Source of the DNA: Betaproteobacteria bacterium
GTDB lineage: Bacteria; Pseudomonadota; Gammaproteobacteria; Burkholderiales; SG8-41
Assembly: GCA_947476215.1 (NCBI GenBank)
Contig: CANJQI010000014.1
Coordinates: 1-48,616 of the forward strand
Length of the DNA: 48,616 nucleotides
Direction: 5' to 3'
Shown piece after piece: positions 25,056 through 46,753 of the stretch. Positions within the stretch are counted from its first letter, which is position 1; every line of letters starts with the position of its first letter. A program made the position numbers and the translations under genes. Under the pieces are notes generated by a model. The model did no database searches and was not told the DNA's origin. It worked only from the letters and a program-made list of their open reading frames with translations.

Positions 25056-26051
25056 TTAGTCTGCTCGTATGCCCGCGTCCTTGATGACCTTGCCCAGCTT
25101 CGTGATCTCAGATTTCATCGCCGCCGCGAGTTGAGCCGGTGTGCTGCCGACCGGTTCGGCGCCCAGACTCAGGAATTGTTCCCGGATGTTGGAGGTGCTG
25201 AGCACGCGGGCGATTTCACGACTGAGCAGCATGATGAGGCGCTCGGGCACGGCTGCCGGGGCATACATGCTGAATATCGTGCCGGATTCGTAACCGGGCA
25301 GGCCGGATGCCGCTACCGTGGCCAGGCCGGGCACCAGGGCGGACGGCTGTGCGCCGGTGTGCGCCAGCGCCCGCAGTTTCCCCGATTTGACATGCGCCAT
25401 GACTGACGACGAAGTGCCGAACTGTAGCTCAATCTGACCACCTATGAGGTCATTGATCGCCGCGCCTCCGCTCTTGTAGTTTACGTGGACGATGTCCACG
25501 CCCGCCATGGACTTGAACAGCTCCGCGGCGAGGTGCGACGATGCGCCTATACCCACGCCGGCATAATTCAGCGTGCCCGGTTTTGATCGGGCGAGTGCAA
25601 TGAGTTCCTTGACGCTTTGCGCGGCGACCGCTGGGTTCACGACGACGATATGCGGCGAGTTGGTCACGATCGTAATGGGCGCGAATTCGCGGACCGGATC
25701 ATAAGGTGATTTTTGCAGCAGCGGGGCGATCGCGAAAACGCCGCCGGCAAACAGCAGCGTGTAACCGTCCGGGTATGCGCGGGCTACGATTTCACCCGGA
25801 ATCAGCGAACTCGATCTGTTGTCGACGATCACCTGCTGCCCAAGACTGCTTGAGAGTCCGGGCGCAATGATGCGCACCGAAATGTCGCTGCTGCCACCGA
25901 CACCGCCGGTGACGACGCGCACCGGTTTGGCGGGATAGGGTGGCGCGGTTGCGGTTGCAGTTGCAGAGGTTTGAGCGGATGCCGCCGCGTTTATCAGGCA
26001 CATCACGCCTGTAAAAATCGACTGTTTGGCGATTCGAAATAGTTGCTTCAT
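25056..26051 (-). CDS. TTT-family periplasmic substrate-binding protein (Bug/TctC)
   Basis: Second complete Bug protein (331 residues). It has a signal peptide ending INAAASA, a short Thr/Ala-rich linker (TSATATATAPP), then YPAKPVRVVTGGVGGSSDI, VDNRSSSLIPGEIVARA and PDGYTLLFAGG, with the family ending KLGKVIKDAGIRAD. The start is set at 26051 because AAGGACG precedes it and the upstream track extension lacks a signal sequence. It reads in the same direction as the gene at 26095-27108, 43 bp apart, so the two are probably cotranscribed. Ligand unknown. Confidence 0.92.
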   Translation of the reverse strand: MKQLFRIAKQSIFTGVMCLINAAASAQTSATATATAPPYPAKPVRVVTGGVGGSSDISVRIIAPGLSSSLGQQVIVDNRSSSLIPGEIVARAYPDGYTLLFAGGVFAIAPLLQKSPYDPVREFAPITIVTNSPHIVVVNPAVAAQSVKELIALARSKPGTLNYAGVGIGASSHLAAELFKSMAGVDIVHVNYKSGGAAINDLIGGQIELQFGTSSSVMAHVKSGKLRALAHTGAQPSALVPGLATVAASGLPGYESGTIFSMYAPAAVPERLIMLLSREIARVLSTSNIREQFLSLGAEPVGSTPAQLAAAMKSEITKLGKVIKDAGIRAD

Positions 26052-26094: not shown

Positions 26095-27108
26095 TTATTC
26101 AGCCTTGATGCCGGCTTCACTGATCACCTTGCCCATGCGCGCCATCTCCGACTTCATCATCGCGCTCGCATGCGCAGGCGTGCTGGGGGACGCTTCCGAT
26201 CCTGACGACAGAAACTTCTCTCTCGCTTCGCGCGTATCCAGATAGCGCACCGCTGCCTGATTGAGTTTCATGATGGTTGCATGAGACGTGTGCGCGGGCG
26301 CGAATATTCCATAAATGGATCCCGCTTCATAACCGGGTAGACCGGACGCAGCGACCGTGGGCAATTCAGGGTACAAGGCCGATGGCTGGGAACTGGTGAC
26401 CGCCAGCGCACGCAATTTCCCGGTTTTGACGTGCGGCATGACGGAGGTGCCGGTGAAGAATGTCAGTTGCACACGTCCGCTGAGCAGGTCGCCGATAGCC
26501 AGCGCGGCGCCCTTGTAAGGGACGCGCACGATGTCGATGCCCGTCATCGATTTGAGCAACTCGCCGGCGAGATGAGACGCGGTGCCGGACACCGATGACG
26601 CATAGTTGAGCGTGCCCGGTTTTGCTTTTGCAAGGGCGATCAATTCTTTGATTGAGCTCGCGGCCACGGACGGGTGCACGCCGACCACGAGCGGCGCCTT
26701 GTTTGTGAAAGTAACCGGCGAGAAGTCCCTGACCGGATCGTAGGGCACTTTTTGCATCAGCGGCTGTATCCATAATACGTTGCTGGTCACCAACAGCGTA
26801 TAGCCGTCGGGTGTCGCTTTCGATACGATATCCGCCGGGATGAGACCGCTGGAGCGGTTTTCAATGACCACCGGTTGTCCCAGAGGCGCCGCGATTCCCT
26901 GGGCAATGACGCGCGATACAAAATCCGGGCTGCCGCCGGCTTCCGCGGTTACCATGCGTATGGGTTTGGACGGAAAGTGCTGTCCGCTGGACACGCCCGA
27001 GGCCAACAACATGACCGCTGCCATCCCCAGGGACGCGACGAGGAACTGCGATTGTATAAACGCCCCGGTTTCAGTTAAGGAAAGTCCTGCTGCTCTCATT
27101 TTGTCCAT
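26095..27108 (-). CDS. TTT-family periplasmic substrate-binding protein (Bug/TctC)
   Basis: Third complete Bug protein (337 residues), first gene of the leftward pair. A rather long N-region precedes the hydrophobic core (ASLGMAAVMLLASGVSSG). Mature features are FPSKPIRMVTAEAGGSPDF, IENRSSGLIPADIVSKA, PDGYTLLVTSN, PYDPVRDFSPVTF and LPTVAASGLPGYEAG. I use ATG 27108 with AGAAGG upstream. It is divergent from the aldo/keto reductase gene, so the 124-bp gap between them should hold both promoters. Close to the gene at 25056 in its NRSS.LIP motif, suggesting duplication. Confidence 0.92.
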   Translation of the reverse strand: MDKMRAAGLSLTETGAFIQSQFLVASLGMAAVMLLASGVSSGQHFPSKPIRMVTAEAGGSPDFVSRVIAQGIAAPLGQPVVIENRSSGLIPADIVSKATPDGYTLLVTSNVLWIQPLMQKVPYDPVRDFSPVTFTNKAPLVVGVHPSVAASSIKELIALAKAKPGTLNYASSVSGTASHLAGELLKSMTGIDIVRVPYKGAALAIGDLLSGRVQLTFFTGTSVMPHVKTGKLRALAVTSSQPSALYPELPTVAASGLPGYEAGSIYGIFAPAHTSHATIMKLNQAAVRYLDTREAREKFLSSGSEASPSTPAHASAMMKSEMARMGKVISEAGIKAE

Positions 27109-30354: not shown

Positions 30355-31365
30355 ATGACGCGAATCTTCGCAGCTACGTTGCTGGTCATAGTCGTTGCAT
30401 TTACTGCGCATGCTTTTCCGGATCGTCCCTTGACGCTGATCACGCCGTACCCCGCAAACGGCTACCCCGATCTTGACGGCACTTCGCGTGTCAGTCGTTT
30501 ACTCAAGACCATGCACAAGTATTCATCGCCGCCGTTGACCGACAGCCTCGCCCAGGAGGTCGCGCAACTGCTGAGTGGCGAATTGAGCCAGCCCGTCGGT
30601 TTCGAGCGCCGTGGCAACGGCAACGCGCTTGCAACTGCGGAGGCGATCGCCGCGGCGAAACCGGACGGTCACACGCTGTTATTTGCAGGCAATCAAACGA
30701 TTACGCTCCTTCCGTCGCTGTATCCACACTCGACTTTCGATCCGCGCACAGATCTCGCGCCGGTGGCGACCATCGCGAGCATGCCGATGGTACTGATTAC
30801 GAGGAAGGCCGGTTCGGCTCTCGATATTAAAGCGTTGATCGCACGCGCCCGCATGGCGCCGGGGCGGTTGAATTATGCGGTCATCGGTGACGGTTCGACC
30901 GCGCAATTGGCCGGCAGGTTGTTCCAGGCTCGCAATGGGATCGATGTCGTGCACCTGAACTATAACGGCAGCCTGCCCGCAATCAATGCCGTGATACAGG
31001 CGGAAGTTGCGTTCGGTGTCGTTCCGCTGCCTGCGGTACTCCCGTCATTGCCAGGTGGTCTAGTGCGCGTGCTCGCGATCGCAGCACCTGCGCGGCACCC
31101 GGCCATCCCAGACGTTCCGTCTCTCCGGGAGTTCGGGCTAAGCGGCTTGGATGCCACTGGATGGTTCGGAGTTTTTGCGCCGGTGGGCACGCCCAAGGCC
31201 ATCGCCTCAACGCTGAATCAGTCGATCCGTGTGGTCATGGGATACGATTTCATCGAGAGCGGCTTGATCAAGCGCGGACTTGGTCCGCTCCCCGGGACGG
31301 TGGATGATTTTCGGGCCTTGATTGAAAGAGACAACGCACGCGCGCTGGCTGCGAGGTCTTTGTGA
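30355..31365 (+). CDS. Divergent TTT-family binding protein with an insertion
   Basis: Bug/TctC-like periplasmic protein of 336 residues. It has a signal peptide (AATLLVIVVAFTAHA), FPDRPLTLITPYPANG, KPDGHTLLFAGN, FDPRTDLAPVATIA and GWFGVFAPVGTP. Between the first strand and the region normally reading LGQPVVVENR is an insertion of ~25 residues (DLDGTSRVSRLLKTMHKYSS) and the NRPGAGG loop is replaced by ERRGNGNALATAE. These changes touch the ligand loop, so its ligand or role may differ from the other copies. No clear ribosome site is seen. Followed by 365 bp without genes. Confidence 0.82.
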   Translation: MTRIFAATLLVIVVAFTAHAFPDRPLTLITPYPANGYPDLDGTSRVSRLLKTMHKYSSPPLTDSLAQEVAQLLSGELSQPVGFERRGNGNALATAEAIAAAKPDGHTLLFAGNQTITLLPSLYPHSTFDPRTDLAPVATIASMPMVLITRKAGSALDIKALIARARMAPGRLNYAVIGDGSTAQLAGRLFQARNGIDVVHLNYNGSLPAINAVIQAEVAFGVVPLPAVLPSLPGGLVRVLAIAAPARHPAIPDVPSLREFGLSGLDATGWFGVFAPVGTPKAIASTLNQSIRVVMGYDFIESGLIKRGLGPLPGTVDDFRALIERDNARALAARSL

Positions 31366-33767: not shown

Positions 33768-35381
33768 ATGGCAAATCAAATGCTGATACTCGACCCGATT
33801 GCAACCATAGGAGACGAAAAGCAGCAGACTCGTCGTTTGAATGACGGAATCGGCGGCAAAGTGATCGGATTCATAGACAATGGCAAGCCCAATTTTCACC
33901 TGCTCGTCGACGATCTCGCGGAACTGCTGACCAGCAAGCACGGCGTTGCAGGCGTCGTGAGGCACCGCAAACGCGGTTCGGTGCCGGTCATGGAATCGGC
34001 GCTGGCGGAGATGTCCGAGAAGTGCGACGCGGTCATAACCGGATCTGGTGATTGAGGCTCGTGCACGTCGTGGAGTATCCACGACATGGTAGAAGCGGCG
34101 AAACGCAATCTGCCGGCCATGGCTATCTGTTCCACGGCGTTTGCGACGCTCGGGCGCTCCCAGGCCAAGGCGCTGGGCTATCCCGATCTCCCGATCGCAA
34201 TTGTTCCGCATCCTTTTGGCATACGTACCAGAAGCGAGCTCAAGGAAATCGCGGTTACCTGTGCCGATGATATTGCCCGGTTACTCAGCAGTGCGGCGAG
34301 CAATGACACCGCGTCGCCGGTAGCAGGCAAGATAAACCGGCGCGCGGACACGCTTGCGGTTCCCGACGATCCCGAAGGGCTAAATCGTTATTTCATGGAA
34401 AGACATTGGGGTGATGGCTTCCCTGTCATCGCGCCCACGCCCGAGCGGGTTGCACGGATGCTGAGTCATACGCGTCGGGCGCCGGATGAGGTCGTAGGCA
34501 AGATAGCACCGGGATATGGTGAGGCAACCGTTGAGCGCATTGCGATAAATGCCGTGCTGGCCGGTTGCCATCCTGAATATCTGCCGGTGCTCATCGCGGC
34601 CGCGGAGGCTGTTTCGGCGCCGGAATTTAACCTTCAGGGCATACAGGCCACGACCAACCCCGGTACCGTATTTCTGATTATCAATGGTCCGATTGCACGC
34701 AAACTCGGTGTCAATAGCGGCAACAACTGCCTGGGACAAGGCACGTGGGCAAACGCCACGCTGGGCCGGGGACTGCGTCTGATACTGCAAAACATCGGTG
34801 GCGCGCAACCGGGCGAGATGGACCGCGCCACTCAGGGCCAACCCGGAAAGTATTCGTTCTGCTGCGCGGAAAATGAGGAAGCCAGCCCGTGGGAAGCTTT
34901 GCACGTTGAACGTGGATTTTCGCCGGGAACCAGTACCGTAACCGTCGTTCCACCGTTAGGCACGTGGAACATGAATACCCACGCGAAAGACGTAGATGAT
35001 CTGCTTAAAGTGTTTGCCGACATCATGGCGTTTCCCGGCGGCAGCGACTATGTTTATGGTGGTGGCGCACCGTGGCTGGTGATGGCCCCGGAGCATGCGC
35101 ATATACTCAAAGTGGCGGGCTTGAGCAAGGCCGACGTCAGAATACGGCTGTGGGAACAGTCAAAAATGTCAGCGATGCGACTGTCCGCAAAGGATTTTGC
35201 GCGCACGCAGAATGGCCGTCGCGCGGAGTTGGGGGAGATCACTCGCGAGACGATGTTGCCCATATCGCCGCGGCCCGAGTGTATCGGCATCATAGTTGCG
35301 GGCGGACCTGGAACGCATTCGGTGTATATGCCGGGCTCCGGATACACGCGAGCCGCCATTACGCGTGAAATCGTATTGTAG
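33768..35381 (+). CDS. UGSC-family selenoprotein fused to a ~350-residue domain (UGA read as Sec)
   Basis: The track shows two ORFs (33768-34055 and 34086-35381); they are in the same frame, separated only by TGA at 34053. Reading TGA as selenocysteine gives one 537-residue protein with ...TGSGD-U-GSCTSWSIHD..., the exact UGSC motif (Sec96, Cys99), in a domain of about 180 residues. Residues ~210-537 form a second domain with RHWGDGFPVIAPTPERV, AINAVLAGCHPEYLPVLIAA and FCCAENEEASPWEALHVE. The downstream ORF alone has no ribosome site and would start inside the UGSC domain. AGGAA precedes the ATG. UxxC suggests a thiol/selenol redox role; the reaction is unknown. Requires SelA-D elsewhere. Confidence 0.9.
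34053..34085 (+). promoter_or_regulatory. UGA codon and putative bacterial SECIS element 1
   Basis: UGA at 34053-34055 is followed after 11 nt by a perfect 7-bp stem, GTCGTGG/CCACGAC, with apical loop AGTAT (34074-34078). The loop begins 18 nt after the UGA and has a G in its first two positions, within the known geometry of bacterial SECIS elements. It lies inside the coding sequence, as bacterial SECIS elements do. Confidence 0.75.
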
Positions 35382-35387
35382 GTAGAT

Positions 35388-36332
35388 TCAGGCCGCTACT
35401 GGCGTATTTGCAGGCGCGGGCATCAAGTGCGGTGTCTTCTTTGCCGCCCAGCGCTTGCGGATCAGCGCGATAAATTGCAGCGCGGCCGGTGAAAGCGTGG
35501 TGCCACGCCGTGTGATGATCCCTATTTTCCGGGACAGCGATGGATCGACGAGCGGTCTGCCCACGAGCACCGAATTCCTGCCCGTGGTCAGGGCCAGGCT
35601 GGGTACGGCGATTACACCGAGACCGGCTTCGACCATGCGCAACCCGGTCCAGAATGAACGCTGGACTTCATATGGCCAGACTCTGCGAACCTTGATCATG
35701 GATGGCACGAAATCAAGATGCGTACGATTACCGCTCAGGCGTCCGACGGTAATCAGGCTGTGATTTTCCAGATCATCCCATCGGACCTGCTTTTGTTTTG
35801 CCAGCGGGTGATCCCTGCGGCAGGCGAGCACGAATGGATCTTCAAACAGCGCTTCAAAGTCCAGTTCGGGCATTTTCTTCTCCATCACGGAAATTCCAAA
35901 CTCCGCTTCGCCGCGCAACACCGCCAGCAGGGTCGCACTGCCATGATCGTCGAGTATGCGCACGTGATTTTCCGGATAGCGCACGCTGTATTCCTTGATC
36001 ACTTCGGGTAACAGGGACATGGCCGCGGTCGGTACGCAAGCCAGTACGACTTGTCCGGTGCCGTGTCTCGCCATGTCCTTGAGTCCGGTCAGCGACAACT
36101 CGAGTTCATGTATCAGCCGGCGGGCATGCGGGAGAAAATCCTTGCCGACCGCGGTAAGACTCACGCGCCGCGTGGTTCGATCAAACAATCTGACGCCCAG
36201 ATGCTGTTCAAGCTTGCGCATGCGTCTTGATAATGCGGGTTGAGTAATCGCCAAGGCTTGCGCGGCTTGGTGAAATGTCCCGTGCTCGGCAATACGCACG
36301 TACGCCTGTAAACCATCGATATCTATATTCAT
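35388..36332 (-). CDS. LysR-family transcriptional regulator
   Basis: DNA-binding activator/repressor of 314 residues. The N-terminal winged helix-turn-helix has the standard pattern (AEHGTFHQAAQALAITQPAL, then RRMRKLEQHLGVRLFDR); the rest is a substrate-binding-type effector domain with LRGEAEFGISVMEK and RMVEAGLGVIAVPSLAL. The effector is unknown, perhaps the acid captured by the neighbouring binding proteins. It is divergent from the Bug gene at 36525, the classic arrangement for a LysR controlling its neighbour. A 26-bp motif overlapping its start recurs upstream of the FAD genes at 40.2 kb. Confidence 0.95.
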   Translation of the reverse strand: MNIDIDGLQAYVRIAEHGTFHQAAQALAITQPALSRRMRKLEQHLGVRLFDRTTRRVSLTAVGKDFLPHARRLIHELELSLTGLKDMARHGTGQVVLACVPTAAMSLLPEVIKEYSVRYPENHVRILDDHGSATLLAVLRGEAEFGISVMEKKMPELDFEALFEDPFVLACRRDHPLAKQKQVRWDDLENHSLITVGRLSGNRTHLDFVPSMIKVRRVWPYEVQRSFWTGLRMVEAGLGVIAVPSLALTTGRNSVLVGRPLVDPSLSRKIGIITRRGTTLSPAALQFIALIRKRWAAKKTPHLMPAPANTPVAA

Positions 36333-36356
36333 GCAAATCCATTAATAATCAATGCA
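36331..36356. promoter_or_regulatory. Putative LysR operator, copy 1
   Basis: ATGCAAAT-N4-TAATAAT-YRATGCA, 26 bp, overlapping the lysR start codon in the lysR/Bug divergent gap. It matches 40204-40229 at 20 of 26 positions. The left part read on the other strand (TTATTAATGGAT...GCAT) also matches 40245-40260. AT-rich, bounded by TGCA at both ends. That LysR binds it is an inference. Confidence 0.5.
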
Positions 36357-36524
36357 ATAAATATATTTTACTCACTAATCCCCAGGTGCGACAATTCCGC
36401 GATATTTACGCGATACTTCGAGCTTGGGCAACAGGCCAGAGCATGCAGCGGGGTGCGCAGCATGGTGGCCGTTTCGGTTGCGAGAACGCGTTTGGACTGT
36501 CATAGGCACTCTAAGGGAAAGAAC

Positions 36525-37493
36525 ATGTCGTCATTTCGATTGGCAATTGGGTTAGGTGTGATCACTCTAATCGTGCAACCGCAGGGTGCACCGCGCGCGC
36601 AAACCTATCCGGAGAAGCCAATACGCATGATCGTGACGGGTATAGGCGGCGGAGTGGATTTTGCCGCACGCCTGATCACCCCGCCTTTGTCGGTCTCTCT
36701 TGGTCAGCAGGTGATTGTCGACAACCGGCCCAGCGGCACCATACCTGGCGAAGTCGTATCACGGGCCGCACCCGATGGTTACACCGTGCTTTTTACCAGT
36801 GGCAGCCTGTGGGTGGGCCCGTTTTTGCAAAGCAAAGTGCCGTATGATCCCGTGAAGGACTTCCTGCCTGTAACGTTGGCAGCGAGGGCGCCCAACGTGC
36901 TCGTCGTCCATCCGTCGCTGCCTGTGAAATCCGTCAGGGAATTGATAGGTCTTGCTAAATCTCGACCGGGCGACCTGAATTACGCATCGTCGGGCGCGTC
37001 CGGTGGGACCACGCATCTGGCGGCGGAGCTGTTCAAAGCTCTGGCAGGCGTCAATATCTTGCGCGTATCGTACCGCGCCACCGGGCCAGCCCTAAACGCG
37101 TTGCTCGGCGGCGAGGTGCAGTTGACCTTCGCGCCCGCCGCATCCGCGACGCAGTACGTAAAGTCAGGGCGGCTGCGAGCGCTAGGCGTCAGCAGTGCCG
37201 AGCCGTCCGTACTTGCGCCCGGATTGCCGACGATTTCATCGTCGGGCGTGCCGGGCTATGAACTTGTATCGATATTCGGAATACTTGCGCCGGCCAGAAC
37301 GTCGACTGGCATCATCGTCAGATTGAATCAGGAAATCGTAAGAATTCTGGCGGGTGCCGACGTCAAGGAAAAGTTGCTGAATACTGGCGTCGAGGCTGTC
37401 GGAAGTTCTCCCGAGCAGTTCAGAACGGCCATTGCATCAGAGATGTCGCGCTTGGGGAAGGTCATACGAGATGCGGGCATACGCGAAGAATAG
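36525..37493 (+). CDS. TTT-family periplasmic substrate-binding protein (Bug/TctC)
   Basis: Fourth complete Bug protein (322 residues). It has a signal peptide (LAIGLGVITLIVQPQGAPRA), YPEKPIRMIVTGIGGGVDF, IVDNRPSGTIPGEVVSRA, PDGYTVLFTSG, a THLAAELFKALAGV block and family end RLGKVIRDAGIREE. The ATG at 36525 has AAGGGAAAG upstream; the longer track start is not supported. It is divergent from lysR and stands 29 bp before the second UGSC gene, so it heads an operon Bug-UGSC-Bug. Its NRxSGxIPGE loop resembles the copies at 25 and 26 kb. Confidence 0.93.
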   Translation: MSSFRLAIGLGVITLIVQPQGAPRAQTYPEKPIRMIVTGIGGGVDFAARLITPPLSVSLGQQVIVDNRPSGTIPGEVVSRAAPDGYTVLFTSGSLWVGPFLQSKVPYDPVKDFLPVTLAARAPNVLVVHPSLPVKSVRELIGLAKSRPGDLNYASSGASGGTTHLAAELFKALAGVNILRVSYRATGPALNALLGGEVQLTFAPAASATQYVKSGRLRALGVSSAEPSVLAPGLPTISSSGVPGYELVSIFGILAPARTSTGIIVRLNQEIVRILAGADVKEKLLNTGVEAVGSSPEQFRTAIASEMSRLGKVIRDAGIREE

Positions 37494-37522
37494 TCCACCA
37501 ACAGTGATCGGAGCTTCAGATC

Positions 37523-39133
37523 ATGAGCGACAGTATATTCATACTGAATCCCAGTTCAGCAGGACAATGCAAGGACCAGCAGGTTCGCCGTGCATTGGAT
37601 GGCCTGAAGGGCAAAGTCGTGGGCTTTGTCGACAATTCAAAGCCAAATTTCAACAATCTCGTCGACGACATGGCTGAGTTCCTGCTAAATCACCATGGCG
37701 TCAGCAAGGTAATAAAGCATCGCAAGACGCTGGCGTCCATTCCCGCGCCGGCCGACGTCATGAGCGACCTCGAACGGCAATGTGATCTCGTCATAACAGG
37801 CTCGGGAGATTGAGGATCGTGCACGTCGTGGAGTGTCCACGACAGTGTTGAGGCCGCAAAAAGAGGTCTGGTGGCAGTCGAGGTGTGTTCTACCGCATTC
37901 GTATCCCTGGGGCACGCGCAAGCCAAGGCGTTGGGCTATGCGGAACTGCCTATCGTGGCCGTACCGCATCCGTTTGGCGGTCTGTCGCGTGACAAAACGC
38001 GTGAAGCCGCCGAGAAATGTGTTGCGGGTATCGTGCTAGCGGCCTTGGAAAAAATGCCTGACTCGTCCAAGGTCCTGGCGAGTACGGATTTTTCGGCCGA
38101 GGCCATCGAAGTCAGCGCGGATCCTGATGAGATCAACAGGCTGAATCGCGACCGGCTATGGTCAGACGGCTTGCCGGTGGTGCCTGCGACTGCCGAGCGC
38201 GTGCAGCGCATGTTGAGTTGCACGCCGCGTAAACGAAATGAGGTTGTTGCAATGCTCGCACCTGCTTTTGGCGCGGCGACCGTGGAACTGATTGCCATCA
38301 ACGCGGTGATGGCCGGTTGTGATCCGGAGTATCTGCCGGTGTTGATTGCCGCGACGGAGGCCATCGCCGACTCAAGCTTTAACCTGCAGGGCATACAGAC
38401 CACGACCAACCCCGCAGCCGCATGGCTGATCGTAAACGGTCCAGTTGCCCGGCGCCTGGGGATGAATTCAGGTATTAATTGCCTGGGACAGGGAAATTGG
38501 GCGAATGCCACGCTGGGGCGGGCGTTGCGACTCATCATGCAGAATATCGGCGGGGCGTTGTCGGGAGACATGGATCGCGCAACGATAGGCCAGCCCGGAA
38601 AGTATTTGTTTTGCTGCGCGGAGAATGAACAGGAGAACCCGTGGGAACCGCTGCACGTCGAGAAAGGATACAGACCGGAGCAGAGCACGGTGACGGTGGT
38701 GGGTGCCGAAGGTACGCTCAATCTGAATACCCATTCCAAGAATGCGGACGAGATCCTGCGCATATTCGCTCAGACGCTGGCCAGACCGTCGGGTAATGAT
38801 TACTTTCTGTGCGGGCAACCGTGGATAATCTTGTGTCCCGAACATGCGGCAGTCATGAAAAAGGCGGGGCTCAGCAAGCTCGATGTGAAGCGCCGCTTCT
38901 GGGCAGGCTCGCAATTGCCGGTGCGGTACATGACGGATATTGATCGCAATTTGACGCAAGTACGCCGCCGGAGCGAACTGGGTGAATTTACCAGCGACAC
39001 CACGCTGCCGATATGTAGCGCGCCGGAGTCACTGGGCATCGTCGTATGCGGTTCGGCAGGCACCCATTCGGTCTACGTGCCGAGTTTCGGAAATACGCGC
39101 TCGGTTACGCGCGAGATAGTCTGGTCTGCATGA
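37523..39133 (+). CDS. UGSC-family selenoprotein fused to a ~350-residue domain, second copy
   Basis: Track ORFs 37523-37813 and 37871-39133 are in one frame, divided by TGA at 37811. Read through with Sec they give a 536-residue protein with TGSGD-U-GSCTSWSVHD (Sec97, Cys100). Overall layout and sequence parallel the gene at 33768: an N-terminal UGSC domain, then RLWSDGLPVVPATAERV, AINAVMAGCDPEYLPV and FCCAENEQENPWEPLHVE. The ORF after the TGA lacks its own start region near the motif. It follows a Bug gene by 29 bp and its stop overlaps the next Bug start (ATGA), so selenium-dependent readthrough is coupled to expression of a binding protein. Biochemical role unknown. Confidence 0.9.
37811..37843 (+). 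promoter_or_regulatory. UGA codon and putative bacterial SECIS element 2
   Basis: UGA at 37811-37813, 11-nt spacer, then the same 7-bp stem as copy 1 (GTCGTGG/CCACGAC, 37825-37831 with 37837-37843). The loop is AGTGT instead of AGTAT; that change alters Ile to Val but leaves the stem untouched. Confidence 0.75.
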
Positions 39134-40149
39134 TGGTTATCGGAACTATGATGCACGCATCAAGTGCACGGTGGCCCCGGATCTGCTACTCGCTAGGCTG
39201 CCATGGCGGAGCGGTCGGTTCGGTGCTTCTGTCCGCAAGCATTGCGATTGCGCAAGGGTATCCCGTAAAACCGGTGCGTATCGTGGTCCCGTTCCCGCCC
39301 GGAGCGGGTGGGGACTTCGTGACGCGCTTGTTTACACCCAGGCTGATGGAAACATTGGGACAACCCTTAGTTGTCGACAATCGCAGTGGTGCGGCAGGCA
39401 ATATCGGTGCGGAAACAGTGGCTCGTGCCGCCCCCGATGGCTATATGCTGCTTACCGTATCGGCGTCGCACGCGATCGGCCAAAGTCTCTACAAAAACCT
39501 GAGTTACGATTTGGTGCGTGATTTCGAGTCGGTTGCATTACTGGCGTCTACGCCCTATGTGTTGGGAGTCCATCGGTCGGTGCCGGTGAGGACGACCCGG
39601 GAATTGATTGCACTGGCCAAGGCGCGTCCCGGTCTGTTGACATTCGGGTCTTCCGGAAACGGCAGTGGCACGCATCTGGCGGGCGAGATGTTGAAAATGC
39701 ATGCGAACATTGAAATGCTGCATGTGCCTTATAAGGGAACGGCGCCGGCAATTTCGGATCTGATGGGTGGACAGATTTCGATGATGTTCGCATCGCAGTT
39801 GCTGCCGCAGATCAGGGCAGGGCGATTGCGCGCGATTGCCATTACGAGCGCCAAACGCAGTCAGGTGGCGCCGGAAATACCGACTGTCGCTGAATCGGGA
39901 GTGCCGGGGTACGAGGCGGGGACATGGTTCGGGCTGATTGCCCCAACAGCAACGCCGCGCGACGTGGTTGCGAAACTGAACGCAGCGGTCACCCGAGCAG
40001 CGCAATTACAGGAAATCCGGGATCAATTGATGACCCAAAGTTCGGCTGAACCCATGAGCGGCACTCCAGAACAGGCTGGCGTATATATCCGTGGCGAGGC
40101 GGTCAAATGGCGCAAGGTAGTTGCAGCGGCGGGGTTGAAAGTTGAGTAG
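39130..40149 (+). CDS. TTT-family periplasmic substrate-binding protein (Bug/TctC), classical subtype
   Basis: Fifth complete Bug protein (~339 residues from ATG 39130, which overlaps the UGSC stop as ATGA; ATG 39148 is an alternative). The signal peptide core is GGAVGSVLLSASIAIA. Unlike the neighbours it carries the classical ligand loop: FPPGAGGDFVTRL and DNRSGAAGNIGAETVARA, followed by PDGYMLLTVSA and GTWFGLIAPTATPRDV. It is therefore from a different Bug branch and may bind another ligand. Last gene of the Bug-UGSC-Bug operon. Confidence 0.92.
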   Translation: MMVIGTMMHASSARWPRICYSLGCHGGAVGSVLLSASIAIAQGYPVKPVRIVVPFPPGAGGDFVTRLFTPRLMETLGQPLVVDNRSGAAGNIGAETVARAAPDGYMLLTVSASHAIGQSLYKNLSYDLVRDFESVALLASTPYVLGVHRSVPVRTTRELIALAKARPGLLTFGSSGNGSGTHLAGEMLKMHANIEMLHVPYKGTAPAISDLMGGQISMMFASQLLPQIRAGRLRAIAITSAKRSQVAPEIPTVAESGVPGYEAGTWFGLIAPTATPRDVVAKLNAAVTRAAQLQEIRDQLMTQSSAEPMSGTPEQAGVYIRGEAVKWRKVVAAAGLKVE

Positions 40150-40203
40150 GGGCGGAAGTTTCGTGCGCATTCATATGCAGGGTCCGAGTTACGACGATCA
40201 ATA

Positions 40204-40260
40204 ATGCAAATTTGGTAATAATTGATGCACTATTTCTATTTCTTTTATTAATGGATGCAT
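40204..40260. promoter_or_regulatory. Putative LysR operator, copies 2 and 3, upstream of FAD genes
   Basis: Two related elements lie in the ~200-bp gap before the FAD gene: ATGCAAATTTGGTAATAATT (continuing GATGCA; 40204-40229), a 20/26 match to the lysR start region, and TTATTAATGGATGCAT (40245-40260), matching the reverse complement of the same region save for two bases. They form an imperfect direct repeat (TWATWAWNGATGCA) spaced about 30 bp. Shared control by the LysR protein is inferred. Confidence 0.5.
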
Positions 40261-40346
40261 GGGAAAATGAAATTTGCAGGTAACTATTTTGGCGCTGCAC
40301 GCCCTATAGGGCATTGCGGTGGACGCTACACGAGGTACCACTAGAA

Positions 40347-41951
40347 ATGGCAAAAAAAACGGCAGGAAAGGGGAGTTATGACATCGTTGTGATTGGGGCT
40401 GGAAACGCGGCCTTCAGTTCAGCTCTGGCGGCCCATCAAGCCGGTGCACGGGTTGCCGTGCTTGAAGCAGCAACCAAGGAGATGCGCGGCGGAAACACGC
40501 GGTTCACAGGCGGATTGTTCCGCTTTACCTACCACAATGTGGAGGAGATCGAACGCATGCTGGGCGACAACGACGATACCAGCACGATCGAATTCGATCC
40601 CTATTCCGCCGAAGACTACTTGAACGACATCGATCGTGTGACGCGCGGCAAATATGATCCCGAACTGATTAACATTCTGATCAGCGAGTCTTTCCCCACC
40701 GTATGCTGGCTCGCGGATAATGGCATTCCTTTCAGCTTTTATCGTTTGCCCAACCTCAAGATACCGGGTACGAACAAGCACAAACTGCAGTTTGGCGCTG
40801 GATTTGAAGTCAAAGGCCGTGGCAGCCTGCTTTCCGATCGCTGGTTCGAGATTGCGGAAAAGCAGGGCATCAAAGTTTTCTACGAAACCCAGGCCGTCGA
40901 ATTGCTGCAGGACGCAAAAGGACGAGTATCGGGCGTGCGTGCGCATGATAGGAATGGCAATGTCGAATTCCGCGCCAAGGCGGTGATACTGGGCAGCGGT
41001 GGATTTCAGTCCAATCCGGAAATGCGCACGGCATACATGGGGCCGGCGTGGAGCATGGTCAAGGTGCGTGGAACCCGCTTCAATACCGGTTTGATGACGC
41101 GTGCCGCGCTGGGCATAGGCGCGCAAGGCGTGGGACAGTGGGCAGGCGCGCACGCCACGCCGCTCGACAATGACGCAGGCGACTACGGCCACCTCGAGGC
41201 GACGGACGAAACGAGCCGCGTTTCCTACCCGTTGGGGTTGATGGTCAACCTCGACGGTCAGCGATTTGCCGACGAAGGCGAAGACTTCAAGCTCTACACC
41301 TACGCCAAGACCGGCGCCAAGATTCTTGATCAGAAGTATGGCGTCATATTCCAGATATTCGACAAAAAAACCACGCCGTTACTCGAAAAACGTTATGGCA
41401 CGGGCAAGCCCGAAACGGCTGACACGCTGGAAGCACTCGCGGAGAAAATCTCGCAACGCTCTGGCGACATGGGCTTTAACAAGTCGCAGTTCCTGAAGAG
41501 CGTGGCCGAATTCAATACGGCCGTCGGAGAGACGGAGTTCGATCCCATGATCAAGGATGGCAAGCATACGTCAGGCCTGGCGGTAGACAAGACGAATTGG
41601 GCGCAACGCATCGATCAGGCCCCGTACGTCGCTTACCCGATCACGACCGGCATTACCTTTACGTTCGGTGGCTTGAAAATCAACGGCGATGCACAGGTTG
41701 TCGATCTGCTTGGACGCGACATACCCGGGTTGTATGCAACCGGTGAAGTCACCGGTGGCTTCTTCTACTATAATTATCCGGGCGGTGCAGGTTTGATGCG
41801 CGGTGCGGTGTTCGGACGGCGCGCGGGAACGAATGCTGCCAAGTACGCGGCCGGCAGCGCAAAGAAACCTGCTGCCAAGTCCAAACAAAACAAGCCCAGA
41901 TCTGCCAAAGGCAAACCGGCAAAAAAGAAAGCGGTTCGCGGCAAACGCTAA
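40347..41951 (+). CDS. TcuA-like FAD-dependent dehydrogenase with Lys-rich tail
   Basis: Flavoprotein of the fumarate reductase/tricarballylate dehydrogenase superfamily (534 residues from ATG 40347). The FAD fold begins YDIVVIGAGNAAFSSALAA, with GGNTRFTGGLFRF, a VILGSGGFQSNPEMR block and the C-terminal GLYATGEVTGGFFYYNYPGG. The GNAA and GGNxR features match TcuA-type enzymes. The usual NTGDG contact reads NTGLMT. The last ~35 residues are a Lys/Ala/Pro-rich basic tail (SAKKPAAKSKQNK...), not normal for the family. It likely oxidises a carboxylic acid; substrate unknown. First gene of the FAD-FAD-DUF-UGSC-PrpD series. Confidence 0.85.
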   Translation: MAKKTAGKGSYDIVVIGAGNAAFSSALAAHQAGARVAVLEAATKEMRGGNTRFTGGLFRFTYHNVEEIERMLGDNDDTSTIEFDPYSAEDYLNDIDRVTRGKYDPELINILISESFPTVCWLADNGIPFSFYRLPNLKIPGTNKHKLQFGAGFEVKGRGSLLSDRWFEIAEKQGIKVFYETQAVELLQDAKGRVSGVRAHDRNGNVEFRAKAVILGSGGFQSNPEMRTAYMGPAWSMVKVRGTRFNTGLMTRAALGIGAQGVGQWAGAHATPLDNDAGDYGHLEATDETSRVSYPLGLMVNLDGQRFADEGEDFKLYTYAKTGAKILDQKYGVIFQIFDKKTTPLLEKRYGTGKPETADTLEALAEKISQRSGDMGFNKSQFLKSVAEFNTAVGETEFDPMIKDGKHTSGLAVDKTNWAQRIDQAPYVAYPITTGITFTFGGLKINGDAQVVDLLGRDIPGLYATGEVTGGFFYYNYPGGAGLMRGAVFGRRAGTNAAKYAAGSAKKPAAKSKQNKPRSAKGKPAKKKAVRGKR

Positions 41952-41975
41952 GCCTCGACGTTGATGGTTGAATGC

Positions 41976-42009
41976 ATTGCGCCGCGAAGTTCAGCGGCGC
42001 AATTTAATT
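41976..42009 (+). terminator. Hairpin between the two FAD genes
   Basis: ATTGCGCCGC (41976-41985) and GCGGCGCAAT (41994-42003) form a perfect 10-bp stem with loop GAAGTTCA, followed by TTAATTG. The U tract is short, so it may be a weak or partial terminator, an attenuator, or an mRNA-end stabiliser. Confidence 0.5.
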
Positions 42010-42065
42010 GAGGCATGCGGGTGTGGGATATGACCAACAAGATAATTTTACCGAGATGAGTAATC

Positions 42066-43556
42066 ATGAATTCTTCATATGACGTAATCGTGGTGGGCAA
42101 GGGTAATGCAGCGCTCTGCGCGGCATTGTCCGCGCAAGAAAATGGCGCAAAGGTGTTGATGCTGGAAGCCGCCACGGAAGAAGAGTCGGGCGGCAACAGC
42201 CGCTTCGCCGGCGGCGTGATGCGTTTTGCGTATGAATCGGTGGATGACCTCAAGCGCGTAACCGAGGTTACGGATGCGGAAATCGCCGACAGTGATTTTG
42301 GCACCAATCTACGTGAGGAGTTTCTCGACGATTTGTACCGGCTTACGAACTTTCGTACCGATCCGGAATTGTCGGACATTCTGGTCAGCCAGAGCCTGGA
42401 GGCGATGAGCTGGCTGCGCTCCAAGGGTGCGCGTTTCATACTCAATTATGGGCGCCAGTCCGGGCTTGTTAACGGGATACGAAAGTTTTTTGGCCGTATG
42501 CCCATAGAAGTCAACGGCGGCGGCGCGGGATTGGTCCAGTACCTGGACGCGGCGACGAAGAAGTTCGGCATCGAGATCAGATACGAGACCCGTGCGATCT
42601 CATTGCTGTTTGATGGCGTGCGTGTGCAGGGCGTGCGCGTGCAGTGCAATGGCGAGAGCATAGAATTGCGGGCGAAGTCGGTGGTGCTTGCGTGCGGTGG
42701 ATTCGAAGCCAATCCGGAGATGCGCGTTCGCTATCTGGGGCCGGGCTGGGATCTGGCGAAGGTGCGCGGAACACGATTCAACCAGGGAGATGGACTAAAA
42801 ATGGCGTTGGAAGTCGGTGCGGCGCCTTATGGAAACTGGTCGGGCGCGCATGCCACCGGCTGGGACCGAAACGCTCCGGAGTTTGGCGATATCAGCATAG
42901 GCGATCAGTATCAGAAGCACAGCTATATCTTCGGTTTGCTCATTAATTCGGACGGCAAACGATTTGTCGACGAGGGTTGGGACTTTCATTCGTTTACCTA
43001 TGCCAAGTACGGCGCTGCCGTGCTGCATCAGGAAGGGCAGTTTGCGTGGCAGGTATTCGATTCCAAAGTCACCAAGCTGTTGCGCTCCGAATATCGCATG
43101 AAATACATGACCAAGGTCAGCGCAAATACGCTAGAGGAACTCGCGCCGAAACTTGAAGGCGTGGATCCCGAGGGATTCCTTAAAACCGTGCGTGAATTCA
43201 ATGACGCGGTGCGCAAGGATGTCACTTTTAACCAAACCATCAAGGATGGCAAGTGCACCGTCGGTATAGATCCGCCCAAGTCGAATTGGGCACAAGTGCT
43301 GGATACGCCGCCGTACGATGCCTATGCGACGACCTGTGGAATCACGTTCAGCTTTGGCGGACTGCGCATAGATCGTGAAACCGGCCAAGTCCTGAACGTT
43401 CATTTCCACAAGATACCGGGACTGTACTGCGCGGGCGAGATGGTGGGGGGGCTGTTCTACTTCAATTACCCGAGCGGCACCGGGCTGGTGTCGGGCGCGG
43501 TATTTGGGCGCCTCGCGGGGCGCGGCGCCGCGGCGGCAGCTAAGGAAGTGAAGTAG
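42066..43556 (+). CDS. TcuA-like FAD-dependent dehydrogenase, second copy
   Basis: 496-residue paralogue of the preceding flavoprotein. FAD fold YDVIVVGKGNAALCAALSA, then GGNSRFAGGVMRF, VLACGGFEANPEMR, the intact contact NQGDGLKMAL, and GLYCAGEMVGGLFYFNYPSG. It lacks the basic tail. The TcuA similarity suggests oxidation of a tri- or dicarboxylate to an unsaturated acid; a TcuB electron-transfer partner is not in the window. The start is ATG 42066; 114 bp after the first copy with a hairpin between, and 7 bp before the next gene, with which it is surely cotranscribed. Confidence 0.87.
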   Translation: MNSSYDVIVVGKGNAALCAALSAQENGAKVLMLEAATEEESGGNSRFAGGVMRFAYESVDDLKRVTEVTDAEIADSDFGTNLREEFLDDLYRLTNFRTDPELSDILVSQSLEAMSWLRSKGARFILNYGRQSGLVNGIRKFFGRMPIEVNGGGAGLVQYLDAATKKFGIEIRYETRAISLLFDGVRVQGVRVQCNGESIELRAKSVVLACGGFEANPEMRVRYLGPGWDLAKVRGTRFNQGDGLKMALEVGAAPYGNWSGAHATGWDRNAPEFGDISIGDQYQKHSYIFGLLINSDGKRFVDEGWDFHSFTYAKYGAAVLHQEGQFAWQVFDSKVTKLLRSEYRMKYMTKVSANTLEELAPKLEGVDPEGFLKTVREFNDAVRKDVTFNQTIKDGKCTVGIDPPKSNWAQVLDTPPYDAYATTCGITFSFGGLRIDRETGQVLNVHFHKIPGLYCAGEMVGGLFYFNYPSGTGLVSGAVFGRLAGRGAAAAAKEVK

Positions 43557-43563
43557 GCTGCCT

Positions 43564-44637
43564 ATGAAGCTTGGATCGCGAATACATGAAGCGAGCGATC
43601 TCGAGGCGGCTATCGAGATGTGCTATGAACAACGGTGGACCGATGGTCTGCCGGTTGTACCGCCGACACGGAATGCGATAGAGCGCATCATCAGCTATCT
43701 GCAGCGCGATCCCGAGGAAGTTATCGGGATCATTCCCCCGCGCAACGGCGTGGCAACGATAGAAAAAATCGCAATTAACTGCGTCATGGCGGGCTGTAAG
43801 CCTGAATACGTGCCGGTCGTGATTGCCGCAATCGAGGCGATGCTGCAGGACCGTTTCAACTTGAATGGCGTGCAGACGACAACCCACTCATGCGCGCCTT
43901 TGGTGATGGTGAGTGGGCCGGTGGTAAAAAAACTAGGATTCAACTCCAAGGAAGGTGTGTTCGGTCATGGTTGCAGGCCCAGCGCGGCCATAGGACGCGC
44001 AGTACGCCTGATACTATGGAATGGTGGTGGTGGGTATCCAGGTGACCCGTGCAAGACCACGCATGCGCATCCGGGATATTTCAGTTTCTGCGTGCCCGAG
44101 GACCAGGATACGAATCCATGGGAGCCCATGCATACGGAGTACGGGTATGGTGCCAATGACAGCGTGGTTACGGTTACGGCGGTCCAGGCGCCGAACACAT
44201 TGGGCAGCGGAGCAGGTTACAGTCCACCGGACGATGTTCTGTTCGTGCTTGCGGATTCCATCTCCGCAATCGGCACCAATAACGTGTCGGGCGGCGATAT
44301 GGTGTTGGCGCTGGGCCCGATGGCGGCGAAGAACCTATCCAACGCGGGATTGAGCAGATCACAGGTCAAGAGCGAAATCATGCGCCTTGCTACACGCTCA
44401 GTGCGCGACATGAAGCGCCATCGTGGCATATCCGACGCGCATCCGATGCACTGGAGCAAGATCGCCGATCCGAATGACGATGAGGCGCGTGTGCCGCTGA
44501 TCCGGAATTCCGAAAATTTGGTGCTGATGGTCACCGGCGGATGGGGATCGGGCGGGGCATTCTGCTCACTGTGTTCCGGATGGGGCGCACCCGGCGGATT
44601 CACCGTCCACAAGCAGATTCATTTCCCCGGCGCATAG
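43564..44637 (+). CDS. Free-standing homologue of the UGSC-fusion C-terminal domain
   Basis: 357-residue protein of unknown function. It aligns along its length with the C-terminal halves of the two fused UGSC proteins: QRWTDGLPVVPPTRNAIER, AINCVMAGCKPEYVPVVIAA, FNLNGVQTTTHS, AIGRAVRLILWNGGG and FSFCVPEDQDTNPWEPMHTE. Conserved between all three are AGCxPEYxPV and the NPWEPxH region. It has no signal peptide or membrane segment, so it is cytosolic. It lies 7 bp after a FAD dehydrogenase and 43 bp before the free-standing UGSC gene, so the split pair is encoded in adjacent genes, while it is fused elsewhere in this window. I do not know its reaction. Confidence 0.85.
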   Translation: MKLGSRIHEASDLEAAIEMCYEQRWTDGLPVVPPTRNAIERIISYLQRDPEEVIGIIPPRNGVATIEKIAINCVMAGCKPEYVPVVIAAIEAMLQDRFNLNGVQTTTHSCAPLVMVSGPVVKKLGFNSKEGVFGHGCRPSAAIGRAVRLILWNGGGGYPGDPCKTTHAHPGYFSFCVPEDQDTNPWEPMHTEYGYGANDSVVTVTAVQAPNTLGSGAGYSPPDDVLFVLADSISAIGTNNVSGGDMVLALGPMAAKNLSNAGLSRSQVKSEIMRLATRSVRDMKRHRGISDAHPMHWSKIADPNDDEARVPLIRNSENLVLMVTGGWGSGGAFCSLCSGWGAPGGFTVHKQIHFPGA

Positions 44638-44680
44638 ACCGAAATTGATCCAGCATGACGTTCCTGAACAGGAGTCAACG

Positions 44681-45211
44681 ATGAGCATTCAGTTATTCGA
44701 TCCCGTATTCGATGTTGAGGTAGTCCAGCAACATGTGGAACGTGGCCTGGAGAGCCTGCACGGCAAGAAAATCGGATACGTTTTCAATCAACATGTCTCC
44801 GCATTGGCATTCTGGAAATCGCTGGAACAGGAAATTGAAAACAAACTGAAACCGGCAAGCGTTCATCGTGTCTACAAGTCGAACACTTGGGCGTCCGCCC
44901 CGAAAGCCGACGTCGAGGAGCTTAGAAAGCAGACGGATTTCGCATTAATAGGGGTGGGGGCCTGAGGCTCCTGCACTTCCGGCGCCGTGCGCGACGGAAT
45001 TTCCCTGGCCAGAGCCGGTCATCCGGTGGTGGTGTTTGTTCATGACAATTTTGAGCGCGCTGCGCGCGCCCAGGCGGTGGGACTACGGTTGCCGGATCTG
45101 CGTATTTTTGTGTATCCACAGTACAAGCCCGGCGATTCCCTGGCCAAGGAGTCTGAAAAGGCCGTCGAAGCCGTGGAAGGTTTCCAGAAATTGCTGATGA
45201 AGGTACGATAG
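44681..45211 (+). CDS. Free-standing UGSC-family selenoprotein
   Basis: The track ORFs 44645-44965 and 44987-45211 share a frame and are divided by TGA at 44963. Translation with Sec from ATG 44681 (AGGAG upstream) gives 176 residues with VGA-U-GSCTSGAVRDG (Sec95, Cys98). It is homologous to the N-terminal domains of the two fusions, e.g. KKIGYVFNQ before the motif and GLRLPDLRIFVYP after it, matching GYPDLPIAIVPHP. No partner domain is attached; the partner is the gene just upstream. The second ORF has no ribosome site and would begin after the motif. Function probably redox or reductive catalysis, unproven. Confidence 0.88.
44963..44999 (+). promoter_or_regulatory. UGA codon and putative bacterial SECIS element 3
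   Basis: UGA at 44963-44965, then an 11-nt spacer and a two-part stem: TTCCG (44977-44981) with CGGAA (44995-44999), and GCGC (44982-44985) with GCGC (44989-44992), a GA bulge, and loop CGT. The loop begins 20 nt after the UGA and contains G. The sequence differs from copies 1 and 2 but the spacing is the same. Confidence 0.6.
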
Positions 45212-45255: not shown

Positions 45256-45310
45256 GTGGCGCCCGTGTGGAATTAGTTCTAGTCATTGCGAAACGAACGG
45301 GAGGCATGAT

Positions 45311-46753
45311 ATGGCAACGCAACAGGAGCGTGTGAAAAAGCAGGGTGCTGAGTCGCATACGTTTGTGCAGGAATTCGCCAAGTGCGTAAATTCCGTGCGC
45401 TACCCGGGACTCCCGCCCGAAGCCGTGTACTGGGCGAAGGCGCTGCTGCTCGATACCGTGGGTGTCACGCTGGCAGGCGTTGAAGAGGAAGCGCCGCGCA
45501 TCATGCGCAATGTCACGTTCCGTACCGCCGGCGACGGGCCTGCTGTCGTGATAGGCACCAACCGGCGCATTAACGTACTTGATGCCGCGCTGATCAATGG
45601 CATCGCCGCGCACGTTCTCGATTTTGACGACTGCAGCAATACCATGGGAGGCCATCCTTCCGCATCGATATTGCCTGCGCTGTTTTCTGCCGCGCAGGAG
45701 TCCGGCGCCAGCGGCGCCGATTTTATTGCCGCCTACGTTACCGGCATAGAAACCAACTGCAAATTCTCGCGCGGTGTGAATTTTTATCAGTACAACAAAG
45801 GGTGGCATCCGACGTCGACCATAGGCATACTGGGATGCACGGCGGCCTGCGCGAATCTGTTAAAGCTGACGGAAGAGCAAACTGCCCATGCCTTGGGCAT
45901 AGCGGCGTCACTGGCTTCCGGCGTTAAGTCCAACTTCGGTACCATGACCAAGTCGTTGCATGTCGGACACAGCAACCGCAGCGCCTTGTTTGCCGTCATG
46001 CTCGCGCGCGACGGCTACACCTCAAGCACGGTCGCGTACGAGCATCATCATGGTTACTTCAACGCTTTCAATGGCAAGGGAAATTTCAATTCAGACCTGA
46101 TACTGCCGGAGTGGGCAAATCCGCTTGATATCGTCAGGCCGGGAATGACGATGAAACTCTATCCGTGCTGCGGCGCGACGCATCCCGCGATCGAAGCGAT
46201 GATGGCGGTGGTTCGCGAAAATGATTTGAAGCCGGACGATATCGAACACGTAGAGGTGCTGCTGCAAACTCGGCGCCTGGAGCATACCAATCGCCCTCAA
46301 CCGCAAAGCGCTCTGGACGCAAAGTTCAGCGTGCAGTATGTGGTGGCGCGCGCGGTAACGGACCGCCGCATTACCATGGAGCAGTTTGAGGGCGACGCCT
46401 ACAAGGACGCGGCTGTTCAACGGCTACTGCCCAAGATACACGCCGGCACCTACACATCAGAACATTTCCCCGAGGATCACCATTTCGGATCGGTAGTCAC
46501 GGTCAAAACCACAAGCGGTAAGATTCTGACTAAAAAGGTATTTTTTCAACTGGGACGAACCGTGGACATTCCCGCTCCACCGGAGCTGATGAAGGAGAAA
46601 TTCGACGACTGCGCGGGCCGGCTGATGCCCAAGGGCCGTGTTGCGGAGATTTATTCGGTGATCCAGCGTTTTGAAAAGCTTCCCGATGTGCGCGAGTTGA
46701 CGGACCTGCTCGCTTTGGATACGGCGCCGGTGCGCCACGCCACTGCGGCATAA
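45311..46753 (+). CDS. MmgE/PrpD family protein
   Basis: 480-residue member of the 2-methylcitrate dehydratase (PrpD)/MmgE/iminodisuccinate epimerase-type family of lyases acting on small polycarboxylates. Motifs: LLLDTVGVTLAGVE, INGIAAHVLDFDDCSNTMGGHPSA, HPTSTIGILGCTAACANLL and the MKLYPCCGATHPAIEAMM block. The start is ATG 45311 with GGGAGG upstream. It follows the UGSC gene by 99 bp in the same direction. A polycarboxylate-type lyase beside TcuA-like dehydrogenases and TTT binding proteins fits an acid-degradation pathway; the precise reaction is unknown. Confidence 0.92.
   Translation: MATQQERVKKQGAESHTFVQEFAKCVNSVRYPGLPPEAVYWAKALLLDTVGVTLAGVEEEAPRIMRNVTFRTAGDGPAVVIGTNRRINVLDAALINGIAAHVLDFDDCSNTMGGHPSASILPALFSAAQESGASGADFIAAYVTGIETNCKFSRGVNFYQYNKGWHPTSTIGILGCTAACANLLKLTEEQTAHALGIAASLASGVKSNFGTMTKSLHVGHSNRSALFAVMLARDGYTSSTVAYEHHHGYFNAFNGKGNFNSDLILPEWANPLDIVRPGMTMKLYPCCGATHPAIEAMMAVVRENDLKPDDIEHVEVLLQTRRLEHTNRPQPQSALDAKFSVQYVVARAVTDRRITMEQFEGDAYKDAAVQRLLPKIHAGTYTSEHFPEDHHFGSVVTVKTTSGKILTKKVFFQLGRTVDIPAPPELMKEKFDDCAGRLMPKGRVAEIYSVIQRFEKLPDVRELTDLLALDTAPVRHATAA

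Follow-up and report, generated by a model that had tools for sequence, protein, structure and literature searches.

Three genes in the 48,616-nt stretch of DNA analysed here (the window) are predicted to encode selenocysteine (Sec, U)-containing proteins of the UGSC family, and they belong to a set of at least 51 such predicted genes in one genome. Their products are most likely substrate-specific selenol reductases of small-acid catabolic operons, with a reaction, a substrate and an electron donor that we infer. The assembly measures 5.75 Mb in 326 contigs (98.5% complete, 1.2% contamination), and the window is its contig 14.

Three in-frame UGA codons predicted to encode selenocysteine

In-frame TGA codons were found at 34053, 37811 and 44963, exactly where the initial annotation had placed them, and at each one the same frame runs on into G-S-C-T-S, giving UGSC. 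The pattern TGAGGNWSNTGY occurs four times in the window against an expectation of 0.62, a number reached by none of 100 shuffles, and three of the four occurrences are these UGA sites. With TGA translated as Sec, genes 1, 2 and 3 yield proteins of 537, 536 and 176 aa, all scoring above the curated cut-off of 25 bits of the Pfam UGSC profile PF24696 (Table 1). Scores against the NCBIfam equivalog NF041046 (UGSC_fam; 111.9, 123.6 and 71.8 bits) stay under its cut-off of 125 bits, and the window genes are therefore filed under PF24696 and not under this narrower family.

The protein is conserved on both sides of the UGA, as had been noticed earlier. The PF24696 frame is continuous, and paralogues differ by codon position to the extent of.34/.26/.59 upstream and.32/.24/.60 downstream of the UGA; such equal values argue that a single frame is translated across both halves. 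Gene 2 itself terminates with TGA (39131-39133), indicative of TGA being an ordinary stop elsewhere, and a code reading UGA as Trp was ruled out because many of these UGSC genes end in TGA. A TTG further upstream was dropped as the start of gene 3 in favour of the ATG behind AGGAG.

Table 1 Features of the UGSC region in the window
Feature	Position	Strand	Evidence
UGSC selenoprotein 1 (predicted), fused: UGSC domain (res. 7-174) + ~350 aa partner domain	33768..35381	+	PF24696 147 bits; read-through translation; 15 fused paralogues aligned
In-frame UGA, predicted selenocysteine U96	34053..34055	+	Cys in relatives
SECIS-like hairpin GTCGTGGAGTATCCACGAC, 8 bp, 3-nt loop	34067..34085	+	z -2.8 vs synonymous recoding
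TctC/Bug periplasmic solute receptor	36557..37493	+	Pfam TctC 205 bits
UGSC selenoprotein 2 (predicted), fused	37523..39133	+	PF24696 155 bits; AlphaFold model
In-frame UGA, predicted selenocysteine U97	37811..37813	+	Read-through frame
SECIS-like hairpin GTCGTGGAGTGTCCACGAC	37825..37843	+	z -4.5 vs synonymous recoding
TctC/Bug periplasmic solute receptor	39222..40149	+	Pfam TctC 233 bits
TcuA-like FAD dehydrogenase	40347..41951	+	NF006130 473 bits, cut-off 369
TcuA-like FAD dehydrogenase	42066..43556	+	NF006130 545 bits, cut-off 369
Stand-alone partner (C) domain, homologous to C-terminal part of fused genes	43564..44637	+	C-domain HMM 439 bits; alignment; AlphaFold pTM 0.92
UGSC selenoprotein 3 (predicted), stand-alone	44681..45211	+	PF24696 105 bits; AGGAG before ATG 44681
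In-frame UGA, predicted selenocysteine	44963..44965	+	Read-through frame
Weaker SECIS-like hairpin, 9 bp with 2-nt bulge	44977..44999	+	z 0.33 vs shuffles, z -1.05 vs synonymous recoding
MmgE/PrpD family protein	45310..46753	+	Pfam 223 + 110 bits

Expansion of the UGSC family in the genome

The count of three copies in 12 kb given by the initial annotation holds, and the scale was under-estimated: 54 UGSC loci of the genome bear a UGA. PF24696 matches 58 loci, of which 51 have one TGA as their sole stop, three combine a TGA with another stop and four lack a TGA. The TGA sits at the motif in all 54 TGA-bearing loci, which read UG[SGAT]C except for UESC on contig C7. Sec and the motif Cys (+3) are retained in 52 of the 52 paralogues tested, as is UG[SGAT]C. 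The copies with an extra stop or frameshift (C7:46801-47299, C45:3329-3712 and C307:2580-3122) are apparently decaying or misassembled, and two divergent UGSC-domain proteins (C76:16708-17226 and C80:22300-22671) have ALCNAG in place of UGSC, with neither Sec nor a U position.

The copies fall into three classes: class A, fused, with UGxCTSW (n=15, including two window genes); class B, fused, mostly UGxCTP (n about 19); and class S, stand-alone, which takes in all remaining copies and includes the third window gene. Identity of the UGSC domain is 75% for the closest pair of paralogues and 27% for the median pair, and the genome's own copies form 31 groups interleaved with those of other species, in a sampling that favoured class A; together these argue against both strain duplication and a recent burst. 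Strain duplication in the metagenome-assembled genome (MAG) as the source of the 54 copies was ruled out by the 75% top identity, by a GC content of UGSC loci equal to that of control regions, and by the UGSC domain turning up in each of the 36 genomes sampled from its bacterial family. Outside that family, 3 of 24 genomes of the order have the domain, and when 299 genomes across the order were sampled, PF24696 exceeded its cut-off in 29, among them 11 of 11 from this family. The nearest named loci belong to uncultured Betaproteobacteria MAGs, several from lakes or groundwater by title. Loci L079, L085, L099, L112 and L123 come from MAG records titled 'Bordetella parapertussis', a name that looks wrong.

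Counting 51 UGSC genes, GrdB, two PrdB-like genes and SelD, the genome has at least 55 predicted selenoprotein genes. This total is similar to those of Olavius Delta 1 (57) and a Methylomirabilota MAG (63), as cited in PMC13188914, and near the published records as far as they are given there. What sets this genome, of a Betaproteobacteria/Burkholderiales-type lineage, apart is that a single family accounts for at least 51 of the at least 55 genes. We found no published report of a UGSC copy number of this order; the 63-gene MAG may have a like make-up.

Selenocysteine machinery and a hairpin after the UGA

The genes selA, selB, selC (tRNA-Sec) and selD are all present in the same genome, each over cut-off (584, 446, 74 and 424 bits, respectively). 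Contig 221 (C221, L078) carries a cluster of selC, a TrxB-like pyridine nucleotide-disulfide oxidoreductase gene, selB and selA, with the TrxB-like gene between selB and selC, while selD, itself a UGA gene, lies on contig 41. Across 60 relatives, selA was found in 35 of 39 UGSC-bearing genomes vs 5 of 21 UGSC-lacking ones (Fisher P 4e-7, relatedness ignored). In addition, homologues with Cys at the U position are present in Natrialba, Sphingomonas and Binatia records (loci L115, L125, L133 and L142).

The aligned sequences indicate that a hairpin after the UGA is kept by synonymous covariation and is weak at the third site. It begins 11 nt after the UGA, with its loop about 20 nt after it. An 8-bp hairpin is common to the UGxCTSW-type genes, which comprise class A and most of class S, and class B has a 6-bp one; in the hairpin alignment, 98.7% of cells are paired. 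The outer pair alternates between G-C and A-U via synonymous third positions of Thr and Asp codons (ACG..GAC vs ACA..GAT), and since the change is confined to these positions, the covariation is protein-neutral. Stem codons are fixed, with TCG in 28 of 28 (background 0.27) and AGT in 25 of 25 (background 0.11). Compared with synonymous recodings, 41 of 54 loci give z<-2, vs 1-5 of 54 for control segments, with P values that ignore relatedness. The hairpin is strong at sites 1 and 2 and across the paralogue set; at site 3 it shows no extra stability over shuffles. The proposal that all three genes are selenoproteins is thus supported as a prediction by the sel genes, the Cys homologues and the hairpin, the last of these going beyond the initial annotation.

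UGSC and partner domain as a two-part unit

Gene arrangement across the genome indicates that the UGSC domain and its partner domain are one two-part unit. The partner, of about 350 residues, is either fused to the UGSC domain or encoded by a separate adjacent gene, as at 43564-45211. A stand-alone partner-domain gene adjoins every stand-alone UGSC gene, the exceptions being a contig-edge fragment and a pseudogene, and 340 kb of control DNA contained no partner domain. Neither Pfam nor NCBIfam has a profile matching it, and the PDB, searched by sequence with either the fused protein or the partner domain, returned nothing. Modelled alone by AlphaFold, it reaches a pLDDT of 89.6. A fold search with this model gave no significant solved relative (best E 0.01, none <0.001), and the fumarase-like top matches were therefore not used.

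Probable remote relationship to GrdB and PrdB

Profile comparison suggests that the UGSC domain likely shares descent, though remotely, with the Sec domain of GrdB and PrdB. HHalign aligned class B with GrdB+PrdB of the same bacterial family at 96.3% probability (E 1.7e-9, 133 columns) and at 89% with the UxxC motif masked, vs 0.9% for reversed and below 0.5% for TctC controls. Class A, with its two window genes, aligned weakly (14-20%), and with the motif masked the whole UGSC family falls to 20-25%. There was no direct match of Pfam GRDB (PF07355) to UGSC proteins up to E 10, GrdB has no solved relative in the PDB, and a phylum-wide GrdB search added little. PF09338, the GrdE/PrdA-type pyruvoyl partner, is absent among the 25 families listed for UGSC neighbours. 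The partner domain as a relative of GrdE was ruled out (0.16% probability), and the pyruvoyl substrate-activating step of glycine reductase is thus without a recognised counterpart here.

This genome, of betaproteobacterial type, also has a real GrdB selenoprotein (UGTCTRC; C148:4958-7551, L246); its surroundings include GrdE (PF09338), a TcuA-like flavoprotein of the FAD_binding_2 family and a GrdC-like protein. Two further selenoproteins, PrdB-like and with the motif U-P-N-C-T-C (C52:8444-8797 and C99:17647-18000; L160 and L161), match the end of the GRDB profile only, and many genomes of the family have genes like them.

Operon context

The window operon runs in the order TctC, UGSC-2, TctC, TcuA-like, TcuA-like, partner domain, UGSC-3 and PrpD; its two TcuA-like flavoproteins and PrpD point to a polycarboxylate as the putative substrate. 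TctC, common throughout the genome, has a density of 3.1 per 10 kb near UGSC vs 1.7 in controls. Other neighbours of UGSC loci include CoA-transferase III, TauD, FAD flavoproteins, PGA_cap and TPP enzymes, the comparison with controls being made for TctC alone. GrdE-GrdB loci of the same bacteria, few in number, have TctC, PrpD, PGA_cap and a FAD_binding_2 flavoprotein as neighbours.

The window has further TctC/Bug receptors at 24053-25009, 25056-26051, 26095-27108 and 30355-31362, as well as a bacterial small SRP RNA at 2110-2208 (RF00169, 78 bits). The 58 TctC/Bug genes in the control DNA extrapolate to about 1000 in this genome, and a first look genome-wide gave 995 candidates; a published extreme is 434 in Rhodoplanes (PMC5994714).

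Discussion

Earlier work has already described the UGSC family as selenoproteins and reported its fusion to an unknown domain, 'Unknown_1' (PMC2398784). The UGSC-containing protein of Zhang & Gladyshev 2008 (PF24696/NF041046) has the same profile, the U-G-x-C motif and the Sec/Cys exchange, and 'Unknown_1' is probably our partner domain, likened by description, not sequence. In that 2008 ocean survey, UGSC ranked with the most abundant selenoprotein families, and it was at its most frequent in the non-marine samples (PMC2398784). What differs here is the number of Sec copies, at least 51 in one genome, the partner that is always fused or adjacent, and scores under the NF041046 cut-off. The initial annotation had described the family as lacking an assigned reaction; we now propose one of GrdB/PrdB type. 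With GrdB (glycine/sarcosine/betaine reductase) and the D-proline reductase PrdB, the UGSC proteins share UxxC in a probably, though remotely, homologous domain (class B), a two-part arrangement and common operon neighbours. They differ in matching no Pfam GRDB profile and in having a partner unrelated to GrdE, with no pyruvoyl subunit recognised.

We give about even chances to a model in which the Sec-containing UGSC domain and its partner would form a two-part, GrdB/PrdB-related enzyme, with about 50 substrate-specific reductive paralogues. SelA, SelB, SelC and SelD would decode UGA as Sec, guided by the hairpin with its loop about 20 nt past the UGA. With a small acid or amide bound in the partner domain, the selenolate would attack the activated carbon of this substrate and displace a leaving group. 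The Cys of U-x-x-C would then free the reduced product with formation of a selenenyl-sulfide, and a thioredoxin-type system, with the TrxB-like gene of the selC cluster as a candidate, would regenerate the selenol. Each of the roughly 50 paralogues would have its own substrate, in a TctC-linked catabolic operon. A selenolate attack on carbon with a leaving group has been proposed for FarB, the GrdB-like fluoroacetate reductase of Cloacibacillus (PMC10838667), which resembles the present case in this proposed chemistry and in the lineage expansion of substrate-specific grdB copies; being a true GrdB, it serves as a chemical precedent only.

Other explanations were weighed against this model. 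It is extremely improbable that the UGAs are real stops followed by separate proteins or decaying genes. The earlier statement that the downstream ORFs have no ribosome site was too strong: GGAG lies 10 nt before ATG 34086, within the hairpin, and AGAGG just before GTG 37871, both Shine-Dalgarno-like and in favour of such stops. The conclusion is unaffected, as 54 homologous positions carry UGA and nothing else, the frames are intact with equal selection on both sides, and the hairpin, the sel genes and the Cys homologues all speak for decoding. We also consider it quite unlikely that UGSC proteins have a thioredoxin-like fold and serve redox defence as thiol/selenol-disulfide oxidoreductases or peroxidases, a reading favoured by their UxxC motif, by the thioredoxin-like fold suggested in 2008 (PMC2398784) and by a 2026 review that puts UGSC beside thioredoxin-like families (PMC13188914). 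The AlphaFold model of the UGSC domain of gene 2 is strictly alternating beta-alpha, with Sec at the start of a helix after strand 89-94, and this predicted structure lacks thioredoxin topology. Its best structural neighbours are of Rossmann/flavodoxin type, most matches being weak, and no thioredoxin is among the top 50; the obligate partner domain and the operons of transport and acid catabolism likewise argue against redox defence. Together, profile comparison and the AlphaFold model point away from a thioredoxin fold and toward the Sec domain of glycine/proline reductase.

Somewhat less remote, yet still unlikely, is a scheme in which catalysis rests with the partner domain, as a dehydratase, lyase or cyclic-amide hydrolase for instance, and UGSC acts only as its redox switch or regenerating subunit. 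In favour are the partner domain's 15 invariant positions, its near-invariant Cys78, Cys176, Asn, Arg, Glu and Trp residues (Glu179 and Trp186 being conserved together with Cys78, in P0004 numbering), its weak fold likeness to class I fumarase, Toblerone hydrolases and CyuA, and the presence of PrpD and TcuA within the window operon. However, none of these structural matches is significant, and the conservation of Sec and the motif Cys in every paralogue tested argues for a catalytic role of the UGSC domain.

A bolder version of the two-part reductase model, possible but doubtful, would make UGSC and its partner an unrecognised class of Sec reductases that work by GrdB-like chemistry without a pyruvoyl subunit. 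Its roughly 50 substrate-specific enzymes would be coupled to the roughly 1000 TctC genes, and selenium would have a central place in how this uncultured proteobacterial family uses organic acids. Each of the at least 51 predicted UGSC selenoprotein genes would be split or truncated by standard annotation. The predicted UGSC selenoprotein genes, tied to a partner and often to a catabolic operon, offer many substrate leads, natural Sec/Cys pairs and a GrdB/PrdB-type structural hypothesis, and some 50 copies in one uncultured bacterium make UGSC chemistry testable.
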